From Candidatus Kuenenia stuttgartensis (GTDB lineage: Bacteria; Planctomycetota; Phycisphaerae; Phycisphaerales; SM1A02), in contig CAMDMA010000023.1 of the NCBI GenBank assembly GCA_945902075.1, positions 1 to 52,449 of the forward strand: a stretch of DNA of 52,449 bases, in the 5' to 3' direction. Both the position numbers and the translations under genes were made by a program. Below are positions 24,372 to 33,926 of the stretch, piece by piece (the first letter of the stretch is position 1; every line of letters starts with the position of its first letter). The notes under the pieces are model-generated. The model saw nothing but the letters and a program-made list of their open reading frames with translations. It ran no database searches and was not told the DNA's origin.

Positions 24372-24719
24372 GTGGCCGACTCGCCCAACACCTTCAACGC
24401 CACCGCCGCAAACTTCGACGCCGAGGTCGTGCAAAGTTCGGTCCCCGTGCTTCTCGACTTCTGGGCTGCTTGGTGCCCGCCGTGCCGGATGCTGAAGCCT
24501 GAACTCGCCGCGCTTGCGCCAGAACTTGTCGGGAAAGTGCGTGTCGCTTTCGTCGACGTCGATGCGGAACCCTCGATCGCGGGTGCGTTTGAGGTTCGCG
24601 GCATTCCTGCGTTGTTTTTGATGAAGGATGGCGAAATCATTGATTCGTGGACTGGCTATTCGCCGCGTGCAGCCGTGAAGGCGCGGCTCGAACAGCATGT
24701 CGGGCCGATCGGTGGCTGA
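24372..24719 (+). CDS. Thioredoxin-fold protein with WCPPC active site
   Basis: 115 residues from GTG 24372 with a GGAGAG Shine-Dalgarno. Thioredoxin fold with active site [20 protein letters not shown] and the cis-Pro loop [12 protein letters not shown]. Classical thioredoxin has WCGPC; WCPPC is found in TlpA/DsbE-like and some thioredoxin-like proteins. There is no signal peptide, so it should be cytoplasmic. The last 23 bases overlap the start of the copper ATPase gene, suggesting coupled expression and possibly a shared role in copper or thiol stress; that link is inference. Confidence 0.9.
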
Positions 24720-27045
24720 GATCGTGCAGACGGTTCGCACCGTCACCGTTGAGGGCATGCACTGCGCAGCCTGCGCGTCAAAAGTTGAGGCCGCAGTGCG
24801 TGGCGTGCAGGGTGTGCGCGAGGCAAGTGTGTCGTTCGCGTCACGGAAAGCGCGAATTGCGTTCGATCCGGAGCGCACGGATCTCTCAGCGATCGCGTCG
24901 AAGGTCAAGCGCGCTGGATTCGCACTTGCGCTTGACCGCGATCCAACAGTGCGGGCTGCGCGCGAGCGTGCAGCGGAGCGAATGTTGGTTTGGCGGGTCG
25001 CCGTCGGTGGAGCGCTTGGACTTCCGCTTGCGGCGATTGCGATGACGCACGGAGCAGTGGAGATTGTTGCTGGAATCGGTGGCGGATGGACGCAATGTGC
25101 CCTCGCGACGCCAGTTTTCGTTTGGTGTGGTTGGCCGATTCACGCTGCAGCGATGGCGCGCGCGCGCGCACGCGGCGTTGATATGAACACGCTTGTCTCA
25201 CTCGGAACGAGCGTCGCATTCCTCGCCAGCGTGTGGACGCTGGTGCAGATGTCGTTCATCAGCCATGGCAACGACCTCGGTGCTGGCGCGTCGACCGATG
25301 CGCGCATGCACGGGAATACACATCTTTGGTTTGAGGCCGCGGCGATCATCATCGTGTTCGTGTTACTCGGGCGCATGCTTGAGGCGCGAGCCACTGCCCG
25401 CGCCGGCGACGCGTTGCGCGCGCTTGCGGCGCTCGCAACGTCGAGGGTACGGATTGTCGAGGCGAGCGGTGAGCGTGAAATTGCTGCCGACCAGATCGAA
25501 GCTCGTATGCGCGTCCGTGTGCGTCCCGGCGAGCGGGTGCCAGTCGATGGAACCATCGTCGATGGCACCAGCGAGGTCGATGAGTCGATGCTGACGGGCG
25601 AACCGATGCCGGTATTGCGACGCGTCGGAGACGCGGTTGTTGCGGGCACAATCAACACGCTTGGTGCACTCGAAATCGAAGCGTCATGTGCGGCGGCGGA
25701 GACAGTGCTCGCACGAATCGTCGAATTGGTCGACGAAGCGCAGACAACAAAAGCGCAGATTGCTCGCGTCGCAGACCAGGTTGCGGCAATTTTTGTGCCG
25801 ATGGTGATCACGATCGCGTGCCTTGCAGCAGCGGCGTGGTGGTGGCTTGGTCCGGCGGAGTTGGGTGCCACGCGCGCTATCGAAGCGCTGGTGAGCGTAC
25901 TCGTTGTGGCATGCCCTTGCGCGCTCGGGCTCGCGACGCCGGTTGCCATCATGGTTGCGTCGGGTCGCGCGGCACAAGCTGGAGTGTTGTTCCGCACGGC
26001 GGCTGCACTCGAAAAACTTGCGAAGGTCGAGGATGTTGTCTTCGATAAAACCGGCACGCTCACCGAAGGGTTGCCGAGAGTCGAGGTGGTGCGACCGATG
26101 CCCGGCATCACACACGAGCGCGTGCTTGCGATCGCTGCGGCTGTTGAATCGAAGAGCGAGCATCCGATCGCGCGCGGAATCGTCGACGAAGCGAACGCGC
26201 GTGGCGTACAACCGCTTGATTCGACTGACTTTTTCGCGGTTCCCGGAAGCGGGGCCCGCGCAAAAGTCATGGACCGCGAGCAAGGTGGCGCGCCCTCGAT
26301 CGCGCGCGCCGTGATTGTTGGTCGCCCGACTTGGCTGTTGGCTGAGGGAATTGTCATGCCCGCCGATGTCGCCTCGGATCGCACCGTGGTTGCGGTAGCG
26401 ATGGATGGTGTTTTCGTCGGATCAATCGAACTGATTGATCGTGTGCGTGCGTCGGCGATGGTTGCGGTCGTCGCGCTTACGGAACTCGGTGTTCGCGCAT
26501 CGGTTGCGAGTGGCGACGGCGAAGCAACAGTAAAACGGGTAGCGCAGGAACTTGGTCTCGACGCGACACGCGCTCATGGATCGATGGATCCGCTTGCGAA
26601 GGCTTCGTTTGTACGTAGCCTCCGAACGCGCGCCGCTGTGGCATTTGTCGGTGATGGCATCAACGATGCTCTCGCGCTTGCAGAGAGTAGCGTTGGTATC
26701 GCGGTCCATCGCGGCTCCGACATCGCGAAGGCGAGTGCTGATATCACCCTCGTCACGAGCGACCTTCGCGCCGTTGCGAATGCGATCACACTTTCCCGGC
26801 AAACGCTGCGGATTGTGCGACAAAATCTCGCGTGGGCATTTGGATACAACCTCGCACTGATTCCTCTTGCGGCTGGCGCACTCTGGCCACTCACGGGTTG
26901 GATGCTCCCACCCGTGGCGGCAAGCGCGGCAATGGCGCTCTCAAGCGTGAGCGTTGTCGCGAACAGTCTGCGGCTTCGTCGCGACGAACAAACTACGCGC
27001 GGCGTTGGCGAGAAACGCGCCGAATCGGCACCCCTTCGTAGATAG
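24697..27045 (+). CDS. copA: Copper-exporting P1B-type ATPase (CopA-like)
   Basis: 782 residues. One heavy-metal-associated domain at the N-terminus with [20 protein letters not shown]. Transmembrane metal site CPC in [17 protein letters not shown], the mark of Cu+ pumps. Actuator TGEP in [17 protein letters not shown]; phosphorylation site [14 protein letters not shown] motif [14 protein letters not shown]; hinge [20 protein letters not shown]. Eight predicted helices as in CopA. ATG 24697 lies inside the thioredoxin gene. The 3' end overlaps the end of the convergent synthetase gene by 53 bases on the opposite strand, so the two mRNAs are antisense there. No copper-sensing regulator gene is visible nearby. 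Confidence 0.95.
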
Positions 27046-30000
27046 CGTCGGGAAGGAGCGTCTCGCGCTTCATCACCACCGAGTGCGGCTCGACGATGGT
27101 GTCCATGCCGACGTCAGCCCCGTACAGCATCACAGTGTTGGCACCAACGGTCGCGCCATCGCGGATGTACACATGATCGACTTTGAGTACGCGATCCTCA
27201 AAAGTGTGCGCCTGAAACAGCGCCTGTACCGTCACGTCGTCGCCGAAGTGGAGCATGTCAGGATCAACCACGTGCGAGAAGCCTGTGCCAAGAAGCGCGC
27301 GGCGTCCGATGCGACAGCCCATCGCGCGCAGAAAGCCGACGAGGATCAGCGAACCCTCGAGAAACGTCAGTGGCACAGCAGCCCACATTCCCCACGCGAC
27401 ATAGAGAAAGTCCCAACGGCTACACCAGCAACTCCAGAGCGGATGGGTGCCCGGCTTGACGCGGCCAACAAGAAGCCATTTCAGCGCAAGAATCGAAAGC
27501 GCGAGAACCGCGAGCGCAGCAAGTAGCCCGAGTGGAAGCGCCAGGAATCGAAAGACTGCTGGTGAGACGCGCGATTCGGCGACCTCCATCACTCGAAACC
27601 ATAAGAGCGCAACAAAGACAGGTCCGATCGGCAGCGCGAATCGAGCAAGTTCCCACATCCATCGATTGATGCGCCGGAGGAGCGGTGGATCGTGTGTGAG
27701 TTCACGCGGCGCATCGATCACTTCGCGCCGAGGAAGGCGAAAGACAGGGTGCCCGAACCATGAAGCACCAGCAGTGTCGGGGAGGCCATCGCCGCGCGTC
27801 GATATACCAACAAGAGTTTCACGCGCGATGCGCGTACCAGATGGAAGGACCGCATGATTTCCAACAAAACAGGATTCCGCGATTACGACTGGTTCGATCG
27901 TTGCGGTGCCGGCTTGCAGTCGTGGGCCACCGAGAAAGATTCCGTCGGCAAAAAATGTTTCGCGGCCGATCTCGACGGAAGATGGAATGACATCGGTGAC
28001 CGTTGAAATCTCGCACCCGCGCCCAATACGCGCGCCGGCAGCGTTGAGCCACAGTGGCCAAAGAAGCGTCCCTGAAAGCCACTTTCCTGCAGCTTCAACT
28101 AAGGCCGACTGAAGCGAAAGTCGCAGCGCGGTAAAACTCCCAAGCGCATACGGCTCGGTCGGGGCGCGGCCAAGCATCCGAACCAAAATGGCTTCGAGGA
28201 GGACCGTGCCAATTCCGGCAACCACGGTGGCCCCGCCGATGAGCGCAAGTCCGGTGAGCGACGGAACCAGTGACTCAGCTCCGCCAAAGAGCGTGTCGCG
28301 CAGCGACCCGTCGATGCGAAGACCAAAAATTCGCAGGGCGAGCGACCATGGCAGGAGGAGGAGTGCGAGAATACTCGCAACCATTCCTGCGCCAAGAATG
28401 AAACGGAGGAGCGCAGGCGCGGGGGCAGCCACGGATGGCGGTTGTGGCGCGGGTGCAACGCGCTCGGCTGGAATTCCATCAAGAATCATGCGTGCGTGTG
28501 GGAGTCCAGCGCGCAAATTTGAGAGCGCACGCAGCACCGAACCTTCGCCGAGCTCGGCACCTGGTGACATCCCCGCACGCGTCTCGAGCGTGGCGCCGCG
28601 CCGAACCGTGATGGGTCCGATGACGAGGGTTCCTGCTTCAAGTTCGATCGTTCGTAACGACGCATCTTGACCGATGGTCGCAAAATCTTCGAGGGTGAGG
28701 AGATCCCAGCCGCCATCCGTCAGTCGCACACCACGGTGAATGTGCACATGAGCTCCGATGCGTGCACCGAGCAATCTGAGTGCGAAGGGCGCAATCGAAA
28801 GTGCCTCGAAGAGTTCCCATGGTGCCATCGACACGAGCCGAACCACGATCCAGTGTCGCACGTGCCAGAGGCTCCACGCACGCACCCTCATCGGTCGATA
28901 GCGGCCGATGAGGATCCATTTCGCAGCGAGTCCAACGATGATCGTGAGTGTTCCGTAAGCCGCAACCGCGACGACGCCTGCAGCGGCCAGGAGGATGGTT
29001 CCAACGAGCCCTTTTTGGAGCTGCTCGCCGAGAAACTCGCCGGCGTCAGGAATCCACATCCACTGGGAAACTGCAATTAAGAGCCCCGTGAGAAACAGCG
29101 TTTGCAGTAGCGTCGCGAGAAAGGGTCGCGAGGTCCCAACGATGTCCGTAGGGGAGGGGTTCACGCTCGCAGCGGGGTCGTTCACGCTCGCAGCGGGGTC
29201 GTTCACGCTCGTAGCGGGGTCGATCATGCTCGCAGCGGGGTCGATCATGCTCGCAGCGCGTCTTCCCGGATGACTGCGGTTTCGTTGCGAATCACTTTCT
29301 GCGTTCGTTGTCGCGGTGTCGAGCGCGCGGGCAGCGTCGCGGGCGGTTCGGTGTTCATAGGCGAGCCGCACGGTCGCATCGCGCGTGGACTCATTCGCGC
29401 GCAGGCGCGAGATGACCATGGCGATGGTGAGGCTATCAAGGCCGAGGTCATCGAAGAAATCGGCCGTCGCGCAAATCGGTTCATCGCCTGCATGATCAGC
29501 GCCAAGTGTTTGCGACATCGTACGAGTGATCGCTTCGAGAATGAGGCGTTCTGTTTCGGTTGAAGCTTCGTCGAAGCGCAGATTTTTGCTGCGAATCGCA
29601 GCGGTACGACTCGCTCTTCCTACTTCTGGCAATTTTTTGCGATCGACCTTCCCTCCGACAGAACGCGGAACAGACGCAATCGTCGCGATGACCGAGGGCA
29701 CCATATAGGGCGGGAGTTCCGCAGCTAGGAAGGCACGAAGCGCATCCGCGTCGATTGATGCTGCGTCGTACATTGTCGCGCGTCGCGCAACGACATGAGC
29801 GACCAACCGTCGCTGCGCTCCGGTGCCCTCGACGGTACACGCAGCCTCGAGCACTGAAGGATGCGCTGCAAGCTTTGCTTCGATTGCGCCGAGTTCCACG
29901 CGATATCCACGAATTTTCACCTGAGCATCGATGCGGCCGTGATAGTGAAAGTCGCCGCGCGCGTCACGGTGGACAAGATCGCCCGTGCGATACACGCGTC

Positions 30001-31165
30001 CGAGCGTGCAATGTTCGACAAAGCGTGCGGCTGTTGTTTCAGGCTGTCCGCGATAACCGCGCGCAAGGGAAGCACCGCCGACAACGAGTTCGCCTTGTGA
30101 ATCATCAGTGATCTCACGAAGTTCCGCATGGTCCGGATCAATCACCCAAGCGTGCGTTCCCGGAATTGCGCGGCCAATCGTGACAGCTTCACCCGAGTGC
30201 ACCGTTGATCGCAGGCAGGTGACGGTGCATTCCGTTGGGCCGTACCCGTTTTCGAGCCGACGTCCGCGAGACCACAGGTTTGCGAGATCCGTTGGAAGAG
30301 CTTCTCCGCCAACGTACAGCAGGTGAATCGCCGGAAGTGCGTGCTCGGGATCGGCGCAGTCGAGCGTGCGAAGTAGCGTCGGTGGCGGGCAGAATACGGT
30401 CGCGCGCTCGTGCTGTAACCAACTCAAGAGGTCGGGGCCGAGACGCGCAGTTTCGTCGTCCATGACGAGGACGGTTGCACCCGCTGCCCACGCAAGCCAA
30501 ATCTCTTCGAGGCTCGAGTCGTAACTTGCTGACGAACCTTGCACCACGCGATCTTTCGCAGACAGTGCAAACTCTGTCCGATCGCCTTCAACAAGGTTGA
30601 AAATCGAGCGGTGCTCAATCTCGACTCCTTTGGGCTTGCCCGTTGTTCCTGAGGTGTAGATCACATAGGCGAGGTTTGTCGGTTGAATCGCGAGTGGAGT
30701 GTGTTCGTGCCAATCGCGGGGATGGGCGTCGCGAACTGCATCGTCGATCGCGCGCGGCGTGATACGCACGATGGTTGGGAACGCGGTTGTCAGTTCGACC
30801 CCGCGCGCGTCGTCGGCAATCACGGCGATTGGTCTTGCATCGCGAACAATTTCTTCTGCGGCGCGCGTTGGAAACGAAGGGTCGATCGCGCAGTACGCGC
30901 AGCCCGCGTGCATGGCACCGAGCATCGCGGCGTAGAGGTGGGGATCGGTGCGCGGAAGCGCGAGAATGACGATCGCGTCGGGTCGGACTCGCGGCGCGAG
31001 CAGAGCAGCGATCGCGCGCGCCATTCGGTCGAGTTCCGCGTAGGAGAGCACGCATCGGCTGCGCTCGGAATTTGGTGGAATGTCGAGGGCAATCGCACGA
31101 GGCGCGTCGTTGCGCGAGGCGATAAAAAAGTCAAGGATGGTTCGGGCGTCTGTGTTCGTCGCCAT
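26993..31165 (-). CDS. Pls/PosA-type nonribosomal peptide synthetase (A-PCP-membrane-hexapeptide repeat)
   Basis: 1390 residues. Adenylation domain: [55 protein letters not shown], and [12 protein letters not shown] with the catalytic Lys. Carrier domain: [13 protein letters not shown] (phosphopantetheine Ser about 577). After a repeat linker (634-668) come several membrane helices ([40 protein letters not shown]) interleaved with left-handed beta-helix stretches ([40 protein letters not shown]; near the end [20 protein letters not shown]). This A-PCP-TM-C architecture is that of epsilon-poly-L-lysine synthetase (Pls, about 1319 residues) and poly-ornithine synthetase relatives. The amino acid used cannot be read with confidence. 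It follows the SET gene by 6 bases and is likely in one operon with it. Confidence 0.9.
29159..29262 (-). repeat. 21-bp x5 in-frame tandem repeat in the synthetase linker
   Basis: Five 21-bp units (plus-strand form ttcacgctcgcagcggggtc plus one base, with variants) encode DPAASVN / DPAASMI heptapeptides between the carrier domain and the first membrane helix. The units are near-identical at DNA level, so the expansion looks recent. It should change linker length, not the fold. Confidence 0.92.
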
Positions 31166-31171
31166 GCCGAC

Positions 31172-31726
31172 TCACGCGCTCCCAATCACCGACTGGAGGT
31201 GCGGAGCAATTCGCGCAGCGCGCGCGCGCCGTTGGGCGGCGTCAAGATGCACAAATCCACGGACGAGTCCAAGGCACTTCGCGGCACCGCAGCCGCAGTG
31301 GAACGGCTCCGCCATACTTATCTCTGTCGTTGTGTAGTCAAAGGTGATTTCATCACCCGCCCCAATCGCGCGACGCGCGAAGAGTATTCGGCCATACACG
31401 CGGGCATTCGGATTGCAGGCGTGGTTCAGAAAACGCCAAGGATGTCGTGCTCGCATCTCGGACGACTCAAGTTCGCTGTCACACTCAATGTGTACATCGA
31501 TATCGAGTTGAATGGAGTAACGCGTGGGATGCCGCTGCAAGCGTCCATCGATCAATAGAATGCGAGCGCCGCGCGCGATGTCGCGTGTCGCCACGAGACA
31601 TGCGCCAGACTGCGTGTCTCGAACGGTGTATGCAAAACGGCATGTCATGGATGAGGCGGTGGGTGTTGCAGCAAGGGGCACGGGTCGGAGTCCGAGGGGA
31701 TGCGTTTGGGAAGCGTACCGCATCAC
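31172..31726 (-). CDS. SET-domain protein, putative lysine N-methyltransferase
   Basis: 184 residues from GTG 31726; a shorter start at ATG 31648 (MTCRFAYTVRD) is also possible. SET-domain motifs are seen: GACLVATRDIARGARILLID at the start of the fold, FLNHACNPNARVYGRILFAR (the NHxCxPN motif that binds S-adenosylmethionine and shapes the knot), ARRAIGAGDEITFDYTTTE (GDEITFDY, active-site Tyr), and a post-SET-like FHCGCGAAKCLGLVRGF with Cys residues for zinc. SET proteins transfer methyl groups to lysine. The gene ends 6 bases before the start of the Pls-type synthetase and is transcribed with it, so a link with the product or with the synthetase is likely. The substrate is unknown. Confidence 0.88.
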   Translation of the reverse strand: MMRYASQTHPLGLRPVPLAATPTASSMTCRFAYTVRDTQSGACLVATRDIARGARILLIDGRLQRHPTRYSIQLDIDVHIECDSELESSEMRARHPWRFLNHACNPNARVYGRILFARRAIGAGDEITFDYTTTEISMAEPFHCGCGAAKCLGLVRGFVHLDAAQRRARAARIAPHLQSVIGSA

Positions 31727-31774
31727 GGCTTCGGATTCGATGGCCGAGTCAGCGAGCCGCGTGCTGACTCGCGA

Positions 31775-32593
31775 TCAGATCTTTTCGGCGATGATTTCAA
31801 GGACCGTTGGCGTGAGAAAGATCGAGGCGGGATTCCGCTCAGCCCGTTCGAGGGCGGCGAGAACCTCCGCCCCCCACGCGGCATCGCGTCGACCCAATTC
31901 AAGGAGTCGCGGAACGTTTGTTCGGACAAAGCCAGCGGGCCAGTGCCAAAGTCGCTCGTTTGGCAGCGCTGCCAAGCCTATCGGCCGAGCACTCCGAATG
32001 GAAAATCCGCGTTCAGCCAACAGCTTTGGCAGTGCAAGAGCGATGTCCGGTTCGCCGCCCTCTTCGCGCCAGCTCTCGTAGACCGCGTCGACGAAATCAC
32101 GGAATTTCGGCTCTGGGGGCAACAATTGGTAACTGCCGTACACGGCATATTCGTGAAAAATTGCTGTTCCGCCCTTGCGAAGGCATCCAGCGAGGCGATC
32201 AACAAGCATGCCAACATCCGGCACGAAGCAGGCAACCCAACGGCACCACACGGCATCAAGCCCCGTGAGCGCGAGCGGCGCGTGCATGAGGTCCGCTTCG
32301 ATGCAGTCGATATTGGAATACGCGCCGTCTCGTGTTTCGCCTCTGAGATACTGGAGGAATCGGACGCTGCGTTCGACCGCAAACACCCGTCCCGTCGGCC
32401 CGACAAGCCGCGCGAGATCAAGTGCAGCGAATCCAGGTCCCGCTCCGATGTCTGCGACTGTCGACCCCAATCCGATTCCTGCCGATCGCCAGGCTGCGTG
32501 GACCTCATCGCGCCAGACCTCGTGTTGAAATCGAAGCCGATCGATTTCGGCGTCGTGCGTTCCAAGAACATAGTCGCGTTCCCTTTGAGCCAT
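31775..32593 (-). CDS. Class I SAM-dependent methyltransferase
   Basis: 272 residues. Rossmann-type SAM-binding motif I VADIGAGPGFAALDLARLVG, acidic end of strand 2 VFAVERSVRFLQYLRGE, then NIDCIEADLMHAPLALTGLD and an RKGGTAIFHEYAVYG strand. The C-terminal half holds the substrate pocket and does not match a family I can name. There is a 48-base gap to the SET gene, same direction, so it is probably the first gene of the synthetase operon. With the SET gene this makes two methyltransferases next to one peptide synthetase. The substrate is not predictable from the sequence. Confidence 0.85.
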   Translation of the reverse strand: MAQRERDYVLGTHDAEIDRLRFQHEVWRDEVHAAWRSAGIGLGSTVADIGAGPGFAALDLARLVGPTGRVFAVERSVRFLQYLRGETRDGAYSNIDCIEADLMHAPLALTGLDAVWCRWVACFVPDVGMLVDRLAGCLRKGGTAIFHEYAVYGSYQLLPPEPKFRDFVDAVYESWREEGGEPDIALALPKLLAERGFSIRSARPIGLAALPNERLWHWPAGFVRTNVPRLLELGRRDAAWGAEVLAALERAERNPASIFLTPTVLEIIAEKI

Positions 32594-32721
32594 GGCGCGG
32601 GTATACCGGGGATTCAGGTCTGAAGGGGAGTTGCCGCGTGGTTGAACTCCGCAGAATCAAGACTTCCGTGTCATCTGACGATCATGGCGTAGCCGAATGC
32701 TGGCTGCGGTCGGACGAATGC

Positions 32722-32892
32722 ATGTTGAGGACTCGCGCGCACACGTTCATCCTCCAGTCCCGCCTCGCGATATCGCTCGCATGGGTTGCTGGGTACACCA
32801 ACGTCATCGCAGTTTTGGTGACGGGCTATGTCGTGAGTCACGTGACCGGACACGCGAGTGCCCTTGGGCGTGACGTCTCCGAAGGGCTCTGG
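32722..32892 (+). pseudogene. N-terminal remnant of a DUF1275 (YoaK-type) membrane protein
   Basis: ATG 32722 opens MLRTRAHTFILQSRLAISLA followed by WVAGYTNVIAVLVTGYVVSH and VTGHASALGRDVSEGLW. This is the first membrane helix and conserved VSHxTGH segment of the DUF1275 family, which normally has about 220 residues and six helices. After residue 57 the frame no longer matches the family and the DNA turns, in another frame, into an amine-oxidase sequence. I read this as the left part of a gene truncated by a deletion. Confidence 0.7.
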
Positions 32893-33926
32893 AGTGGCGT
32901 GATGCGATGGACGGGTGGAAGAAGTTTGAGACACTCTCCTCAAGCTTTCCCGACGGATCTCCCCAGAATCATCCGGATGCTGCGGAGCTCGACGCGCAAA
33001 CATTCGCCGATTGGATTAAGGCGCATCTTCGGACCCGATTCGGACGTTGGTACTTTGAATCAATGTCGCGTGCTGTTGGCTTTCTCGGGCCAGCAGAATC
33101 AACTGAGGTGTCGCTCCTGCACGTGGCTTGGGGGCAGCACGTCGCGCCGCAATCGGAGCATCCCGAAGCAGAGTTGCTACATGGCGGTGCGGGCCAAATT
33201 CCCGAATTGATTTCGCGCGAATTCACGGCGTCTCTTCGCACGAACGCCATCGTGACGACGATCTCGCATGGGCAAGATGGAGTCGAGGTTCGATGGTCGA
33301 CGCCTTCGGGGACAACAAACGAAGCACGCGCGCGTGTCGCGATCCTTGCAATGCCTCCCTCCGCAGCCGACGCGATCACATTCGTTCCGCCGCTTCCAAC
33401 AGCAAGGGTTGCACTCGGACGACAGATGCGGATGGGTCGGTGTGCGAAAGTACTCATTTCCTACCAAACGCCGTTTTGGCGCGCGCATGGATTGGCTGGG
33501 CTTGGGATCGGCAATCGTTCGTGGGTTGAACTTTGCGCCGACAGCAGTGACCCGCGTACCGATGTTGGAATTTTGGTGGCGTTTGTCGTGGGCGATCGCT
33601 ACACGCGATGGAGTGCGCTCGCGAGCGACGCGCGTCGCGAGGCGATACTGGATGATATTGAGGCCTACTTTGGTCTTGAGGCTCGCACGCCTGTGAGTTA
33701 CGACGAAGCGGACTGGTCCCGCGAAGAGTTCATCGGCGGTGCGTTTTCTGCCTACATGCCGCCTGGAGCGTGGACCTCATGCGGACGCGCACTGGTCGAA
33801 CCTGTGGGCTGCGTGCACTGGGCCGGCACCGAGGCTGCGATGCGTTGGCCCGGATTTTTCGATGGAGCGGTCCGTGCTGGGGAAGCGGCCGCGGACCATG
33901 TGCGCGCGTTTCTATCGGATCACTAG
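32893..33926 (+). pseudogene. C-terminal two-thirds of an FAD-dependent amine oxidase, N-terminus lost
   Basis: In the frame with ATG 32907 the sequence matches flavin monoamine oxidases from about one quarter into the protein: HPDAAELDAQTFADWIKAHL, LLHGGAGQIPELISREFTAS, ARVAILAMPPSAADAITFVP and the C-terminal FAD motif CVHWAGTEAAMRWPGFFDGA (Thr-Glu, then MxGxxxGAxxxGE-like). The GxGxxG dinucleotide-binding N-terminus is missing, and directly upstream lies a DUF1275 fragment in another frame. The 339-codon ORF has no internal stop, so the loss could be recent, or a truncated protein could still be made, but without the FAD-binding fold it should be inactive. Confidence 0.75.

Follow-up and report, generated by a model that had tools for sequence, protein, structure and literature searches.

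A SET-domain methyltransferase gene beside Pls/PosA-like synthetases of several bacterial phyla: a candidate module for a methylated cationic poly-amino acid

Which substrate would a SET-domain methyltransferase act upon when its gene is placed immediately ahead of a synthetase resembling those that polymerise basic amino acids? Pls makes ε-poly-L-lysine and PosA makes δ-poly-L-ornithine (excerpts of PMC10522769), and descriptions of such cationic polymers to date concern chains of plain diamino acids that are antimicrobial and cell-penetrating (excerpts of PMC10522769 and PMC9606270). The question is raised by a planctomycete DNA stretch of 52,449 nucleotides, hereafter the window, for which an earlier note had proposed a methylated poly-amino-acid pathway from a methyltransferase gene, a SET gene and a gene for a 1390-residue synthetase lying in this order on the minus strand. 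All three open reading frames (ORFs) are borne out by their coordinates and by Pfam (Table 1). The SET stop codon is separated from the synthetase start by 6 nt and the class I methyltransferase gene from the SET gene by 48 nt, while a promoter scan returned no match and terminator-like sites number 8 compared with 5.5 in shuffled sequence. At its 3' end, the synthetase ORF overlaps by 53 nt (26993-27045) with a convergent ORF for a heavy-metal P-type ATPase (24697-27045, plus strand). On the other side, a flavin amine oxidase ORF (32907-33926, plus strand) aligns with its 443-position Pfam model from position 120 onwards only, with a DUF1275 remnant scoring under the cut-off just ahead of it (region 32422-33926, plus strand); both are apparently decayed genes.

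Table 1. Position of the genes in the window and of the regions encoding the synthetase domains
Feature	Position	Strand	Basis
Class I SAM methyltransferase, 272 aa	31775-32593	minus	ORF call, Pfam
SET-domain methyltransferase, 184 aa, GTG start	31172-31726	minus	ORF call, Pfam, AF2, homologue alignment
NRPS-like synthetase, 1390 aa, ATG start	26993-31165	minus	A, carrier, linker and membrane/hexapeptide C-terminal domain
Adenylation domain, aa 9-514	29624..31141	minus	Alignment of 19 synthetases
Carrier (PP-binding) domain, aa 546-615, DSL serine at aa 578	29321..29530	minus	Pfam, alignment
Tandem repeat of a 21-bp unit, 4.8 copies, in frame within the linker that joins carrier and membrane domain	29159..29258	minus	
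C-terminal polymerisation-type domain, aa 680-1385	27011..29128	minus	TIGR02353, hydropathy, AF2, partial fold matches

The synthetase is comprised of an adenylation (A) domain, a carrier domain and a membrane-type terminal domain of about 700 residues, with no canonical condensation or thioesterase domain, as revealed by matches to Pfam AMP-binding (214 bits), AMP-binding_C, PP-binding and Hexapep, and to NCBIfam TIGR01733 (360 bits, exceeding the cut-off of 317). In the AF2 model of the C-terminal part (pLDDT 90.6, pTM 0.90), considered together with its hydropathy, three hydrophobic helix pairs are each followed by a β-helix-like stretch, which is the threefold repeat modelled for PosA (excerpts of PMC10522769). 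This domain architecture and the retention of the pocket Asp and Glu are shared with Pls and PosA; unlike those enzymes, the window synthetase falls in a separate clade and, while covering nearly the full length of TIGR02353, the model of the Pls/PosA terminal domain, it scores 330.9 bits, below the cut-off of 423.1 that is surpassed in none of the 151 genomes of the window's order. Foldseek returned no solved structure covering the whole C-terminal domain, and its three matches at E ≤ 0.001 are serine acetyltransferases (hexapeptide acyltransferases) over parts of it. Seven synthetases of the clade (L062, L063, L101, L103, L114, L115, L132) carry an additional C-terminal DUF418 membrane domain, in six of the seven with an HGSNAT_cat match as well, suggestive of a fused acylating step; the SET gene is present at five of these loci and absent at two.

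The specificity code of the window A domain is DSECYGGVTK (D216, S217, E220, C259, Y284, G286, G307, V315, T316 and K506), read from an alignment of 19 synthetases including that of the window and placed by what we take to be the GrsA positions, with Glu220 at position 239. Asp216 and Glu220, the residues expected to bind the α-amine and the side-chain cation, are invariant in the 19, and the full code recurs at 18 of the 19 order-level loci (DSECWGGVTK in the other, G057) and at 58 of the 64 named-genome loci with a fully readable code, these being drawn from the best 80. It is not the code of a known diamino-acid substrate and differs from the classical DAESIGTVVK and the DMEHNGTVSK of PosA. 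When the string was afterwards matched to PMC10522769, the identical ten residues were found in a CHPA homologue from Bdellovibrionales, the A domain of which (OFZ39577.1, 'Bdello_A') activates L-arginine modestly, favours none of four diamino acids, and is proposed by its authors to take a 'larger analog', while an Ala at code position 2 marks the Lys type (excerpts of PMC10522769). Lysine, the monomer that the earlier note had in mind, is therefore unsupported by both the code and this assay, and the substrate might be L-arginine itself. The terminal amine of the side chain is bound in PosA by Glu221, with hydrogen bonds to Thr304 and Ser313 (excerpts of PMC10522769). The Glu is kept in the window synthetase but Thr304 is replaced by Gly307, Ser313 by Thr316 and Asn280 by Tyr, so the pocket would appear to be roomier, with fewer hydrogen bonds around a bulkier cation, such as would be needed by a methylated side chain or by a guanidino group. 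A chain built from a positively charged amino acid is the probable product of the synthetase.

The SET protein matches Pfam SET (PF00856) at 43.1 bits (cut-off 22.4) and carries the single PF00856 domain that a profile search finds in the window genome. Its AF2 model has a mean pLDDT of 90, reaching about 95-98 over residues 31-180; confidence is low over the first 30 or so residues, so translation may really begin at the ATG of codon 27. Twelve residues are invariant in 48 pathway SET proteins (W97, H102, C104, P106, F129, Y131, E135, P141, F142, C146, C151 and G157), and the NHxCxP and FDY motifs and post-SET cysteines that sign the SET fold are all present; with the active site so conserved, the enzyme should be catalytically active. 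Its nearest solved relative is BurB from Burkholderia thailandensis (9l4t, 9l4v), a compact SET enzyme of specialised metabolism that methylates free methionine to S-methylmethionine and whose pocket closes upon SAM binding (excerpts of PMC12542666). BurB ranks first in a profile search (9e-20, MLL1 following at 1.8e-15), in Foldseek (2.5e-11, the best other match being 2.2e-8) and in VIA (Z 14.7, 128 residues aligned, rmsd 3.5; second BurB match Z 14.4), where ASH1L comes next (Z 13.0, 116 aligned, rmsd 1.8). This lead is modest, as the rmsd to BurB exceeds that to ASH1L and, with the single window sequence as query, BurB (2.5e-9) and MLL1 (3.7e-9) tie. The two proteins have the tyrosine, histidine, cysteines and an (S/T)TE motif in common, yet they are only about 26-29% identical and the partner of the window protein is a Pls-like synthetase. 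By hand alignment, BurB Tyr124 is kept as Tyr131, and Ser88, which lies between substrate and SAM in BurB, corresponds to the invariant Trp97; the BurB S88A variant retains over 60% of activity (excerpts of PMC12542666).

Since profile and fold both place BurB closest among solved structures, the SET protein might likewise be a methionine S-methyltransferase supplying the A domain with S-methylmethionine, a sulfonium cation that Glu220 could bind. Such a monomer lacks the amine on its side chain that isopeptide bonds require, and it is also shorter than lysine although the pocket seems to be larger; the Trp at the Ser88 position also speaks against it, and we regard this reading as improbable. 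A SET enzyme acting on free lysine has a precedent by description in the pea Rubisco large-subunit methyltransferase, which is reported to methylate the free amino acid as a side reaction and, unlike the window protein, is a plant protein methyltransferase (cited in excerpts of PMC8085414). The best reading of the window protein is a dedicated small-molecule methyltransferase for a sister clade of Pls/PosA, with the module perhaps yielding a side-chain-methylated cationic monomer. Among weaker actinobacterial relatives, two SET genes (L227, L228) lie 1-2 kb from AMP-binding enzymes and a third (L230) adjoins a condensation-A-carrier-thioesterase protein amid polyketide-synthase-like ORFs recognised by eye, settings consistent with other candidate small-molecule methyltransferases.

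The association of the SET gene with the synthetase is real and is broader than the earlier note could know. Across 151 genomes of the window's order, a synthetase match above 300 bits occurs in 19 and a close SET homologue (E<1e-13) in 16, and each of these 16 SET genes, of which that at L074 is cut short, immediately precedes the synthetase in the same orientation, leaving three synthetases without one (G008, G045, G057). The hypergeometric probability of such an overlap, 6e-19, assumes independent genomes, which these related ones are not. Weaker SET matches occur in 19 further genomes, bringing the number at E ≤ 1e-3 to 35 of 151. Since the close homologues are found solely beside the synthetase in these genomes, a ribosomal protein, the other target that the earlier note had considered, is disfavoured. 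Two tandem SET genes precede the synthetase in G078 (L076, 6656-7249 and 7280-7960).

The pairing extends well beyond the order. In the best 80 loci of a scan of named genomes, seven ordinary multi-domain NRPSs (L153-L159) were set aside, and 35 of the remaining 73 loci have a SET gene upstream, the gap being 305 nt in L088. These 35 belong to Planctomycetota (20), Actinomycetota (5), Verrucomicrobiota (3), Acidobacteriota (2), Armatimonadota (2) and to no named phylum (3). Removal of nine loci without a fully readable code left 64, and 57 are usable exact-code loci, L091 with 479 bases upstream having been left out because absence of SET was called only with at least 700 upstream bases. Within these 57 from the best 80, the SET gene is adjacent in 33, from at least five phyla, and absent in 24. 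No SET gene was found at the 7 Pseudomonadota, 4 Gemmatimonadota and 3 Myxococcota loci of the same best 80, two of which (L126, L149) are truncated upstream. Other full codes from this set are accompanied by SET in one case of six and the DSECWGGVTK synthetase of G057 lacks it, numbers too small to weigh.

Classical systems provide the control. Among 150 Kutzneria-family genomes, the classical terminal domain exceeds its cut-off in 102 and a SET protein at E<1e-58 occurs in 10, in every case directly upstream of a DSECYGGVTK synthetase (two being L086 and L139); of 11 more genomes with weaker SET matches, four were inspected, and none has the gene beside such a synthetase. None of 20 classical Pls-type regions contains a SET gene; their codes are DAESIGTVVK (10), DGESVSVVNK (2), DFEYLGTVTK and DFECLSAVTK, the other six being partial or not meaningful and including L203, which has less than 400 bases upstream. 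Across the phylum of G156 (labelled Verrucomicrobia), covered with 240 genomes, no SET match is better than 5e-25 and 47 have some match at 1e-10 or better; the clade terminal domain is strong only in G156, which lacks SET, with two others at 440-460 bits. The earlier note had named two outcomes that would tell against its proposal, a SET gene not conserved next to Pls-type genes in related genomes and a pocket lacking the acidic residue for a second amino group. With the pairing conserved and Glu220 present by comparison with the Pls and PosA codes, neither has occurred.

The class I methyltransferase fares differently. The window protein is a member of Methyltransf_11 (48.4 bits), but clear homologues occur at just 5 of the 19 order loci, with a weak sixth, and only three lie immediately upstream in the same orientation, and named-genome homologues, from the best 80, are seen at L080-L083 and L151. 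It is lineage-specific, conserved among close relatives alone, and probably outside the core module, and the candidacy of this gene as a core partner was rejected. Thus, of the pathway first proposed, the association of SET gene and synthetase stands as real and widespread, whereas its lysine and two-methyltransferase parts are unsupported.

The history of the two genes was traced in a FastTree tree of 100 synthetases, from which seven duplicates shared by the order and named sets had been removed. The 83 clade synthetases form a group apart from the 17 classical enzymes (local support 100%), and the presence of SET requires 16 changes compared with 33.6 in shuffles, the label of SET-less being given to L084, L091 and L144 on too little upstream sequence. 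Because numerous internal branchings are unresolved and certain rows are long or truncated upstream, the tree is read only for its broad pattern, namely that SET is clustered, is present in deep planctomycete branches, and was gained or lost many times. Distances between SET proteins follow those between their synthetases (r=0.80 over 48 pairs, L074 with its short ORF left out; none of 999 permutations in a Mantel test was as high). An old partnership with repeated loss is the preferred reading. Against this background it is very improbable that the genes are coincidental neighbours and that the SET protein serves a ribosomal or other housekeeping target. That idea would draw on the 24 of 57 same-code synthetases, from the best 80 named loci, that lack SET and on three genomes in which a close SET gene is unlinked to the synthetase; it is opposed by the adjacency at 16 of 16, 10 of 10 and 33 of 57 loci, by the empty classical regions and by this co-diversification.

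When the genomes of 22 loci without SET were searched, three were found to have a close unlinked SET gene (G157, G167, G170), six a weaker one (G155, G158, G162, G165, G045, G008) and 13 none; for the 17 exact-code loci among them the numbers are three, five and nine, the nine including the isolate Novosphingobium aerophilum. The same search recovered SET in five of five SET-bearing genomes. No synthetase of this type lies near the unlinked SET genes in the stretches examined, and no replacement methyltransferase recurs at SET-less loci among 40 neighbour clusters listed, as judged by eye with few checked against Pfam. An ORF of amino-acid-permease type lies within 2 kb upstream of the synthetase at six SET-less loci (L085, L089, L090, L123, L125, L129), four of them from sphingomonads and that of L129 confirmed by Pfam. 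Either the SET product is not an obligatory monomer, or the SET-less lineages get the monomer otherwise.

The SET enzymes characterised to date mostly methylate lysines in proteins. With its catalytic residues conserved and histone methyltransferases close behind BurB in the VIA fold list, the window protein might accordingly mark a lysine on the synthetase, or on some other protein, by methylation that serves regulation or self-protection. This seems unlikely when its SET-I region is about 7 residues shorter than that of MLL1 by profile alignment, its best fold match is BurB, its close homologues occur solely beside the synthetase in the 151 genomes, and the synthetase persists without it at many loci.

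An unchanged code where SET has been lost fits tailoring after loading, or another source of the monomer, better than an obligate methylated monomer. For this reason, tailoring after loading, wherein the A domain would take an unmethylated cationic amino acid (arginine or one like it) and methylation of carrier-bound units or of free chain amines would fall to the SET protein, is kept as a near-equal rival to methylation of the monomer first, and is a serious if lesser possibility. The code would be expected to stay the same if SET acted downstream of activation, and the fused acyltransferase-like domain of the seven clade synthetases hints at tailoring of the chain. The L-arginine activity of the identical-code A domain also favours it, although that activity is just modest and the polymer only predicted (excerpts of PMC10522769). 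Also weighing against it, the closest solved SET relative seals its pocket over a single amino acid.

The reading placed first, tentatively and with somewhat less than an even chance, is a two-gene module of synthetase and adjacent SET protein in which the latter methylates a free cationic monomer and the former polymerises it. The SET protein would be a pathway enzyme of the BurB kind, compact and directed at a small molecule rather than at a histone-like protein, and its most likely step would be side-chain methylation of the still free monomer ahead of loading, for instance the conversion of lysine into N-ε-methylated lysine. The DSECYGGVTK A domain would then activate this cation, a larger amino acid than either lysine or ornithine, and load it on the carrier domain of the synthetase, and the C-terminal domain would join the units at the membrane, as in Pls and PosA, to give a methylated, more strongly cationic homopolymer.

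The module belongs to the cationic poly-amino-acid kind and differs from Pls and PosA in its SET partner gene and its code. Neither 'SET domain' nor 'methyltransferase' is matched in the main text of PMC10522769, and no paper joining a SET protein with a Pls-type synthetase was found among the top-ranked open-licence literature matches. A clade of synthetases spread over many phyla, whose DSECYGGVTK code a published study did not tie to a true substrate, hereby gains a linked methyltransferase as a clue, and this link reduces the question of the substrate to a small set of assays. The SET protein of the window is a further candidate, beside BurB, for the involvement of SET enzymes in small-molecule metabolism. 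It is conceivable, if rather doubtful, that these genes represent a widespread and undescribed class of bacterial polymer, a methylated polycation that a Pls-like synthetase with a matching enlarged pocket would assemble after a SET enzyme of the histone-methyltransferase fold had methylated the free cationic amino acid on its side chain.
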